This document shows, in pieces, positions 20,822-24,311 of a stretch of 64,000 nt of DNA. Both the position numbers and the translations under genes were made by a program. The DNA comes from Mesostigma viride. Taxonomy: Eukaryota; Streptophyta; Mesostigmatophyceae; Mesostigmatales; Mesostigmataceae. How positions within the stretch are numbered: position 1 is the first letter of the stretch; each line of letters opens with the position of its first letter. Under the pieces are notes generated by a model. The model was not told the DNA's origin and made no database searches. It worked only from the letters and a program-made list of their open reading frames with translations. The stretch lies in assembly GCA_009746045.1 (NCBI GenBank), contig RPFO01000213.1, forward strand, positions 6,915,609 through 6,979,608. The letters are read 5' to 3'.

Positions 20822-23800
20822 CAGCAGCAGCAGCAGCAGCAGCAGCAGCAGCAGCAGCAGCAGCAGCAGCAGCAGCAGCAGCAGCAGCAGCAGCAGCAGC
20901 AGCAGCAGCAGCAGCAGCAGCAGCAGCAGCAGCAGCAGCAGCAGCAGCAGCAGCAGCAGCAGCAGCAGCAGCAGCAGCAGCAGCAGCAGCAGCAGCAGCA
21001 GCAGCAGCAGCAGCAGCAGCAGCAGCAGCAGCAGCAGCAGCAGCAGCAGCAGCAGCAGCAGCAGCAGCAGCAGCAGCAGCAGCAGCAGCAGCAGCAGCAG
21101 CAGCAGCAGCAGCAGCAGCAGCAGCAGCAGCAGCAGCAGCAGCAGCAGCAGCAGCAGCAGCAGCAGCAGCAGCAGCAGCAGCAGCAGCAGCAGCAGCAGC
21201 AGCAGCAGCAGCAGCAGCAGCAGCAGCAGCAGCAGCAGCAGCAGCAGCAGCAGCAGCAGCAGCAGCAGCAGCAGCAGCAGCAGCAGCAGCAGCAGCAGCA
21301 GCAGCAGCAGCAGCAGCAGCAGCAGCAGCAGCAGCAGCAGCAGCAGCAGCAGCAGCAGCAGCAGCAGCAGCAGCAGCAGCAGCAGCAGCAGCAGCAGCAG
21401 CAGCAGCAGCAGCAGCAGCAGCAGCAGCAGCAGCAGCAGCAGCAGCAGCAGCAGCAGCAGCAGCAGCAGCAGCAGCAGCAGCAGCAGCAGCAGCAGCAGC
21501 AGCAGCAGCAGCAGCAGCAGCAGCAGCAGCAGCAGCAGCAGCAGCAGCAGCAGCAGCAGCAGCAGCAGCAGCAGCAGCAGCAGCAGCAGCAGCAGCAGCA
21601 GCAGCAGCAGCAGCAGCAGCAGCAGCAGCAGCAGCAGCAGCAGCAGCAGCAGCAGCAGCAGCAGCAGCAGCAGCAGCAGCAGCAGCAGCAGCAGCAGCAG
21701 CAGCAGCAGCAGCAGCAGCAGCAGCAGCAGCAGCAGCAGCAGCAGCAGCAGCAGCAGCAGCAGCAGCAGCAGCAGCAGCAGCAGCAGCAGCAGCAGCAGC
21801 AGCAGCAGCAGCAGCAGCAGCAGCAGCAGCAGCAGCAGCAGCAGCAGCAGCAGCAGCAGCAGCAGCAGCAGCAGCAGCAGCAGCAGCAGCAGCAGCAGCA
21901 GCAGCAGCAGCAGCAGCAGCAGCAGCAGCAGCAGCAGCAGCAGCAGCAGCAGCAGCAGCAGCAGCAGCAGCAGCAGCAGCAGCAGCAGCAGCAGCAGCAG
22001 CAGCAGCAGCAGCAGCAGCAGCAGCAGCAGCAGCAGCAGCAGCAGCAGCAGCAGCAGCAGCAGCAGCAGCAGCAGCAGCAGCAGCAGCAGCAGCAGCAGC
22101 AGCAGCAGCAGCAGCAGCAGCAGCAGCAGCAGCAGCAGCAGCAGCAGCAGCAGCAGCAGCAGCAGCAGCAGCAGCAGCAGCAGCAGCAGCAGCAGCAGCA
22201 GCAGCAGCAGCAGCAGCAGCAGCAGCAGCAGCAGCAGCAGCAGCAGCAGCAGCAGCAGCAGCAGCAGCAGCAGCAGCAGCAGCAGCAGCAGCAGCAGCAG
22301 CAGCAGCAGCAGCAGCAGCAGCAGCAGCAGCAGCAGCAGCAGCAGCAGCAGCAGCAGCAGCAGCAGCAGCAGCAGCAGCAGCAGCAGCAGCAGCAGCAGC
22401 AGCAGCAGCAGCAGCAGCAGCAGCAGCAGCAGCAGCAGCAGCAGCAGCAGCAGCAGCAGCAGCAGCAGCAGCAGCAGCAGCAGCAGCAGCAGCAGCAGCA
22501 GCAGCAGCAGCAGCAGCAGCAGCAGCAGCAGCAGCAGCAGCAGCAGCAGCAGCAGCAGCAGCAGCAGCAGCAGCAGCAGCAGCAGCAGCAGCAGCAGCAG
22601 CAGCAGCAGCAGCAGCAGCAGCAGCAGCAGCAGCAGCAGCAGCAGCAGCAGCAGCAGCAGCAGCAGCAGCAGCAGCAGCAGCAGCAGCAGCAGCAGCAGC
22701 AGCAGCAGCAGCAGCAGCAGCAGCAGCAGCAGCAGCAGCAGCAGCAGCAGCAGCAGCAGCAGCAGCAGCAGCAGCAGCAGCAGCAGCAGCAGCAGCAGCA
22801 GCAGCAGCAGCAGCAGCAGCAGCAGCAGCAGCAGCAGCAGCAGCAGCAGCAGCAGCAGCAGCAGCAGCAGCAGCAGCAGCAGCAGCAGCAGCAGCAGCAG
22901 CAGCAGCAGCAGCAGCAGCAGCAGCAGCAGCAGCAGCAGCAGCAGCAGCAGCAGCAGCAGCAGCAGCAGCAAGCAGCAGCAGCAGCAGCAGCAGCAGCAG
23001 CAGCAGCAGCAGCAGCAGCAGCAGCAGCAGCAGCAGCAGCAGCAGCAGCAGCAGCAGCAGCAGCAGCAGCAGCAGCAGCAGCAGCAGCAGCAGCAGCAGC
23101 AGCAGCAGCAGCAGCAGCAGCAGCAGCAGCAGCAGCAGCAGCAGCAGCAGCAGCAGCAGCAGCAGCAGCAGCAGCAGCAGCAGCAGCAGCAGCAGCAGCA
23201 GCAGCAGCAGCAGCAGCAGCAGCAGCAGCAGCAGCAGCAGCAGCAGCAGCAGCAGCAGCAGCAGCAGCAGCAGCAGCAGCAGCAGCAGCAGCAGCAGCAG
23301 CAGCAGCAGCAGCAGCAGCAGCAGCAGCAGCAGCAGCAGCAGCAGCAGCAGCAGCAGCAGCAGCAGCAGCAGCAGCAGCAGCAGCAGCAGCAGCAGCAGC
23401 AGCAGCAGCAGCAGCAGCAGCAGCAGCAGCAGCAGCAGCAGCAGCAGCAGCAGCAGCAGCAGCAGCAGCAGCAGCAGCAGCAGCAGCAGCAGCAGCAGCA
23501 GCAGCAGCAGCAGCAGCAGCAGCAGCAGCAGCAGCAGCAGCAGCAGCAGCAGCAGCAGCAGCAGCAGCAGCAGCAGCAGCAGCAGCAGCAGCAGCAGCAG
23601 CAGCAGCAGCAGCAGCAGCAGCAGCAGCAGCAGCAGCAGCAGCAGCAGCAGCAGCAGCAGCAGCAGCAGCAGCAGCAGCAGCAGCAGCAGCAGCAGCAGC
23701 AGCAGCAGCAGCAGCAGCAGCAGCAGCAGCAGCAGCAGCAGCAGCAGCAGCAGCAGCAGCAGCAGCAGCAGCAGCAGCAGCAGCAGCAGCAGCAGCAGCA

Positions 23801-24311
23801 GCAGCAGCAGCAGCAGCAGCAGCAGCAGCAGCAGCAGCAGCAGCAGCAGCAGCAGCAGCAGCAGCAGCAGCAGCAGCAGCAGCAGCAGCAGCAGCAGCAG
23901 CAGCAGCAGCAGCAGCAGCAGCAGCAGCAGCAGCAGCAGCAGCAGCAGCAGCAGCAGCAGCAGCAGCAGCAGCAGCAGCAGCAGCAGCAGCAGCAGCAGC
24001 AGCAGCAGCAGCAGCAGCAGCAGCAGCAGCAGCAGCAGCAGCAGCAGCAGCAGCAGCAGCAGCAGCAGCAGCAGCAGCAGCAGCAGCAGCAGCAGCAGCA
24101 GCAGCAGCAGCAGCAGCAGCAGCAGCAGCAGCAGCAGCAGCAGCAGCAGCAGCAGCAGCAGCAGCAGCAGCAGCAGCAGCAGCAGCAGCAGCAGCAGCAG
24201 CAGCAGCAGCAGCAGCAGCAGCAGCAGCAGCAGCAGCAGCAGCAGCAGCAGCAGCAGCAGCAGCAGCAGCAGCAGCAGCAGCAGCAGCAGCAGCAGCAGC
24301 AGCAGCAGCAG
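20822..24311 (+). repeat. Giant CAG trinucleotide array, about 1,163 units
   Basis: The array is 3,490 bp of CAG on the + strand with a single extra A (CAGCAAGCAG) near 22971. It is preceded by (CAA)6 and ends in CAGCTGCTGCCGCCG. It lies within intron 3 of the LRR gene, so the pre-mRNA would carry an r(CAG) tract. All six frames stay open through it, giving about 1,200-codon homopolymer frames (Ser, Gln, Ala, Leu, Cys); these are products of the repeat and not genes. The left flank is a truncated hAT-1 copy and the right flank is family-2 DNA. Confidence 0.97.

Follow-up and report, generated by a model that had tools for sequence, protein, structure and literature searches.

By what route does a nearly uninterrupted CAG array of more than 1,000 units come to stand in the genome of the streptophyte Mesostigma viride, and does the array belong to a gene? 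To our knowledge, expansions of this size (>1,000 CAG units) have been described chiefly as disease alleles in humans. The array studied here lies in a stretch of 64,000 nucleotides (hereafter the window; contig RPFO01000213.1, abbreviated C1, positions 6,915,609-6,979,608) from a genome assembly of 440 Mb in 2,243 contigs. All positions below are those of the window unless a contig or locus is named.

The array is pure apart from a single base

Direct reading of the window sequence gave exactly 716 CAG units (20822-22969, plus strand), followed by a single additional A (CAGCAAGCAG around 22971) that shifts the phase by one and places a CAA where CAG was expected (22970-22972, plus strand), and then by another 447 units, again pure, in the new phase (22972-24312, plus strand). 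Each of the two parts is therefore an uninterrupted CAG tract of hundreds of units, and together with the extra A they amount to 3491 bases without a substitution in the one assembly from which the length and the right junction of the array are taken. TRF scored the array as 1163.3 copies with 99% matches. These readings bear out an earlier note on this DNA, which had described a nearly pure array of about 1,163 units with one extra A near 22971; that A is indeed the only interruption, and the array ends at 24312 rather than at 24311.

The left edge of the array is formed by (CAA)6 (20804-20821, plus strand), and the right edge by the 12-base palindrome CAGCAGCTGCTG (24306-24317, plus strand), followed by CCGCCGACACC. 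In the remainder of the window the longest CAG/CTG run has three units, so the array is not a compositional effect, and chance or base composition was rejected as its source.

The array joins two unrelated truncated repeats

To the left of the array lies the 5′ part of a hAT-type element (19547-20821, plus strand), which retains its left terminal inverted repeat (TIR) CAGTGTTTCTGCTA (19547-19560, plus strand). Alignment to a sister copy in the window (3680-6122, minus strand) showed that the element is cut at its own (CAA)n tract and that about 0.73 kb of its 3′ part is missing relative to the sister. In the sister, which is nested in a copy of a dispersed repeat that we call R, the (CAA)n tract lies about 1.7 kb from the left end and at the site equivalent to the array reads (CAA)5 (4407-4421, minus strand); the array copy aligns with the sister as far as this (CAA)5, and there the array starts. 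Short TIRs with CAGTGTTTC-type ends are typical of the hAT superfamily. The window sister has 14-base TIRs at both ends and is flanked on both sides by the 8-base target duplication ACCATGCT (minus strand), which we take to be hAT features; the duplication was read on this sister, the array copy having no right end. The right TIR is present also in a further copy, L093, which is described below. A single ORF of the array copy (20079-20459, minus strand) was scanned for a transposase and had no Pfam match.

The 8-mer ACTACTAT precedes the left TIR of the array copy and is also found within R (9467 and 39586), which would fit an insertion of the hAT element into R at this locus. This idea was dropped because the sequence to the left of the TIR gave no match to upstream R at E 1 and because the 8-mer is common, with eight occurrences on both strands of the window.

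To the right of the array stands the 3′ part of R (from about 24313/24317 to about 24736, plus strand), which is cut where other copies read CCAGCAAGAACGCTGCCGACACC. Three sister copies in the window are uninterrupted at the junction site (9585-10001, 15582-16044 and 39704-40078, all on the plus strand), and homology among the window copies reaches 1.3 kb farther upstream than the array junction, extending to 8302 for the first of these sisters and to 38415 for the third. A genome search with R returned 2,210 first-look candidates, of which 40 were scored, and the 29 best-scoring other copies were fetched. All 29 continue through the junction site with GTTTTTTCCAGCAAGAACGCTGCCGACACC or a one-base variant of it. 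The reciprocal junction, in which the left side of R would run into (CAG)7, had no exact match in the genome, in an exact search that R variants would escape. On these grounds we rejected the array as an inherent part of R. Neither a 5′ remnant of R nor a 3′ remnant of the hAT element was found beside the array.

Next to the array, R carries GCTGCTGCCGCCGACACCTGTTGTC where the consensus has GCTGCCGACACCTATC. The difference can be read as a doubling of GCT, GCC and TGT, or as fewer doublings together with substitutions; all 39 other scored copies lack the three bases that the TGT step adds (a span of 241 bases as against 244). Over 24317-24733 (417 bases), comparison of the array-side copy with the 29-copy consensus shows 18 substitutions, of which two lie at most 21 bases from the array. 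This divergence is ordinary for the family, since the other copies each deviate from the consensus in 10 to 20 columns. Had the array diverged as much as R, it should contain about 150 substitutions; none was seen, which indicates that the array is younger than its flanks or that its purity is maintained by turnover. This comparison agrees with the earlier suggestion that near purity reflects very recent or ongoing expansion.

The array thus joins two unrelated truncated repeats, each ending at a CAA/CAG-like motif. Since both are cut at the array, it must bridge either a rearrangement or, less likely, a misassembly.

The transposon carries the seed of the array

A genome search with the 188 bases that precede the array returned 435 first-look candidates, whose hits end at query position 183-188, that is, inside the CAA tract. 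Of the 435, 40 were scored; they comprise the array copy, the window sister, L093 and 37 others, 20 of which were read across the site. Nearly all of these 20 (19) have CAA tracts of three to nine units at or near the site, and eight carry a CAG within the tract, as (CAA)3-CAG-(CAA)2 (CAACAGCAA). In the remaining one of the 20, the hAT copy at L191, a long C-rich run replaces (CAA)n, a different repeat having grown at the same spot.

L093 (the copy at C335) reads (CAA)19(CAG)89(CAA)13 at the same site, after which the hAT sequence continues up to the right TIR; this copy was located via its array, and the right part of the element was read. Because L093 continues to its right TIR, the CAA tract of the hAT element is able to gain a CAG array without any other rearrangement. 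The array of L093 in the same tract and the CAG in eight of the 20 further tracts identify the transposon as the source of the seed. Expansion of the tract is nevertheless rare: none of the 20 copies has a CAG array at the site, and the hAT family accounts for one of the 99 other CAA-edged arrays among the matches listed (see below).

The copies closest to the window hAT copy (90%) have (CAA)5 and no CAG, and the CAG-bearing copies are more distant (82-84%). Because the closest copies lack a CAG, an A-to-G change (CAA to CAG) of its own was perhaps needed in the array copy, which may have acquired its first CAG in this way. A single hAT family thereby presents, within a single genome, a series of states at one site that runs from (CAA)n through (CAA)3CAG(CAA)2 and (CAA)19(CAG)89(CAA)13 to (CAA)6(CAG)1163. 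The common starting sequence of the copies makes it possible to compare them with respect to seed, growth and breakage.

Expansion followed by break repair is the favoured origin

We consider it probable that the array is a recent expansion of a hAT-borne (CAA)n/CAG seed that was later fused to R by break repair. According to this model, a CAG inside the hAT (CAA)n tract would expand, to 89 units in L093 and to 716 and 447 units in the window copy. Slippage or hairpin bypass probably drove this growth, joined by break-induced replication once the array had become so long. The array would then have broken, internally or at its side, and have been repaired onto a copy of R at a CAGCAA motif. This repair would remove the 3′ end of the hAT element together with the 5′ part of R, and would account for the palindrome and the altered triplets beside R. 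Slippage, break repair and the sequence in which these events took place are inferred, as is the true cellular length of the array. Several observations speak against the model: expansion of the hAT tract is rare, the closest copies have no CAG, remnants of the R 5′ part or the hAT 3′ part were not found beside the array, and the extra A may be the point at which two arrays were joined. In human cells, (CAG)102 tracts are described as template-switch hotspots with two-sided deletions and short duplications, in the part of that report available to us (PMC11161834), and these deletions and duplications resemble the anatomy of the window junction. The most likely consequence is a fragile, length-variable locus at which nothing is selected.

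It is unlikely, in our judgement, that the locus is an assembly chimera, in which an expanded hAT copy was joined to an unrelated R locus via shared CAG, so that the length and the right junction would be artefactual. Such a chimera would account for two unrelated repeats both being cut at the array, and the phase shift at 22971 is a possible join. Moreover, a separate array at L039/L040 (C1:657787-666563) reads (CAG)401, CTGCTG and (CAG)22 and then ends in exactly 7,500 N, possibly an assembly gap. However, a chimera would form most easily if a copy of R had an array of its own, and neither the exact search for R running into (CAG)7 nor any of the 29 fetched copies yielded one; the window is also free of N.

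Improbable, too, is a scheme in which the junction came first, with microhomology end joining of hAT (CAA/CAG) to R (CAGCAA), a templated CAG insert serving as the seed and expansion following later. The sites of truncation would suit it: CAGCA(A/G) occurs just twice in the 1.7 kb of R, once at the very point of truncation, and the hAT element is cut at its own CAA tract. Against this order of events, L093 expanded at the same tract without a junction, so a junction is not required for expansion.

No host gene is apparent at the array

The earlier note had placed the array in the 22-kb intron 3 of a leucine-rich repeat (LRR) gene, in the sense orientation, with a transcript that would contain an r(CAG) hairpin. 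Neither the location nor the orientation and transcript found support: no LRR-like exon was detected, and both flanks are repeats. LRR motif scans of the window gave isolated motifs only, mostly in frames with nearby stops. Five synthetic LRR consensus queries were compared with 2,021 stop-to-stop ORFs (those not crossing position 22000), where no E was better than 0.31, and with the 10 kb on each side of the array, where none was better than 0.24; a Pfam scan of 20 selected window ORFs returned no LRR. Because such synthetic queries have low sensitivity to short divergent exons, an LRR gene could have escaped these searches, and an LRR host gene at the array is unsupported rather than disproved.

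It is very improbable that the array is functional, with transcribed r(CAG) influencing an LRR host gene through splicing, retention or silencing. In silico, 40 units of r(CAG) do fold into a regular hairpin (-45.8 kcal/mol), and TCF4 offers a precedent of an intronic CTG expansion with intron retention (PMC7988464, in the part available), but a shuffled pure repeat folds equally well, the flanks are transposable elements, and the LRR exons that it presupposes were not found.

A polyQ protein encoded by the window array was rejected, given the frameshift and the transposable-element flanks; the Q frame becomes an A frame at 22971, and the stop-to-stop ORF (20714-24403) has no Met before the tract. 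Searches of the window for tRNAs and Rfam families found none.

Other repeats are abundant in the window. With the array masked, 42% of the window matches another part of it (E 1e-5 or better). The region 50267-54961 contains two ORFs (53.2-55.0 kb) that match Pfam families of the phage-integrase type, though short of the curated cut-offs (E 0.017 and 0.001), and that we assume may belong to a DIRS-like tyrosine-recombinase retroelement; the region is bracketed by repeats (49706-50181 and 55171-55606), and the tyrosine-recombinase ORF had no relative in viral contigs. Two nested direct duplications occupy 29123-33802 (29123-29779 and 33148-33802, 99%; 30493-31299 and 32157-32963, 99.9%). The segment 41913-45859 holds a 510-base direct repeat (41913-42422 and 44073-44582, 99.8%) and an 830-base inverted repeat (42333-43165 and 45859-45028, 86%), and its repeats are related to 18452-19071, immediately to the left of the array hAT copy. 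Near the start of the window, a 7-base unit, CCCGCTG, is repeated 34 times from 193 to 431 and is followed by 62-base repeats up to 618.

Long CAG runs are common in the genome

Exact searches of the assembly found (CAG)20 at 27,872 and 23,550 places on the two strands and (CAG)21 at 27,530 and 23,223. Subtracting the second from the first, summed over both strands, gives 669 maximal pure CAG runs of at least 20 units, with a mean of about 96 units; the window array counts as two of these runs and holds about 1.8% of their units. By the same calculation the reversed control (GAC) forms 142 pure runs of this minimum length, so CAG is not the only triplet with long arrays in this genome. Thirteen other array stretches were read, and the longest pure run has 24-92 units in 12 of them and 401 in the remaining one. 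The earlier note had called the length of the window array exceptional. With 669 runs in the genome this needs qualifying, although a run of hundreds of units was found in only one of the 13 stretches. The window array is an extreme case in a genome where the repeat itself is common. In the 401-unit array at L039/L040, the switch from CAG to CTG is like that at the right edge of the window array.

The pattern CAA(CAG)19 occurs at 108 places (control, 45), and the left edges were read at the 99 listed places other than the window's own. By flank similarity, 34 of these 99 listed arrays belong to one family and 17 to a second; the hAT copy L080/L093 is one more, another two pair with each other, and the remaining 45 stand alone. 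The Q frame is open through the flank in 83 of the 99, as against 24 and 26 for the other frames, the family copies being non-independent. Because of this excess, most CAA-edged arrays among the matches listed resemble polyQ tracts of multicopy elements or of genes, to which the hAT arrays are exceptions.

The 34-member family (L073 and 33 further loci) carries its CAG arrays in an open polyQ frame. Seven of its copies are identical over 183 of 183 flank bases, and in the four copies that were read onward an array of 41-49 units is followed by (CAG)5TTCCCG repeats. At L038 (1529-3307), (CAG)67 lies within a 592-codon open frame that matches retrotransposon gag weakly, short of the cut-off (E 0.014), and 17 of the 99 listed array edges share its flank. 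In viral and prokaryotic collections, pure CAG tracts of at least 32 units were found in three viral and four genome contigs, the longest with 45 units, and phage records gave no match.

We also entertain, with some doubt, a broader view in which kilobase CAG arrays would be ordinary genome content in this organism. Multicopy elements would spread seeds of CAA/CAG, and where triplet hairpins are controlled weakly or in an altered way, individual copies could exceed 1,000 units and cause elements to fuse. If this were true, the genome would provide a natural, non-disease model for unrestrained CAG expansion.

Comparison with known repeat expansions

In sequence, the window array resembles known large CAG/CTG expansions. 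In myotonic dystrophy type 1, CTG alleles form arrays of at least 1,000 units; there the array is a disease allele in a 3′ UTR, whereas the window array is known from a genome assembly. The FXN GAA tract of Friedreich ataxia originates within an Alu. As in this and other repeats seeded by transposable elements, an element supplied a seed at the window array that expanded later. The FXN seed is the A-rich region of a retroelement, whereas the window seed is an internal (CAA)n/CAG tract of a hAT-type element, of which an expanded sister exists. A literature search of titles and abstracts found no hAT-seeded kilobase CAG array, which does not prove its absence from print.

Human CTG18.1, the TCF4 repeat of Fuchs endothelial corneal dystrophy, is like the window array a CAG/CTG expansion in non-coding DNA. 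In the available parts of the respective reports it is located in intron 3 (PMC7595208) and is unstable in blood cells (PMC7988464). It differs in having a known gene and transcript, whereas the window array has a hAT-type seed and no demonstrated gene. The GAA/TTC expansion in the IIL1 intron of Arabidopsis Bur-0 is, as far as the available part of the report extends (PMC12177298), a natural triplet expansion outside humans, as is the window array. It concerns another triplet and has a known gene and phenotype, whereas the genome that holds the window array has long CAG runs by the hundred.
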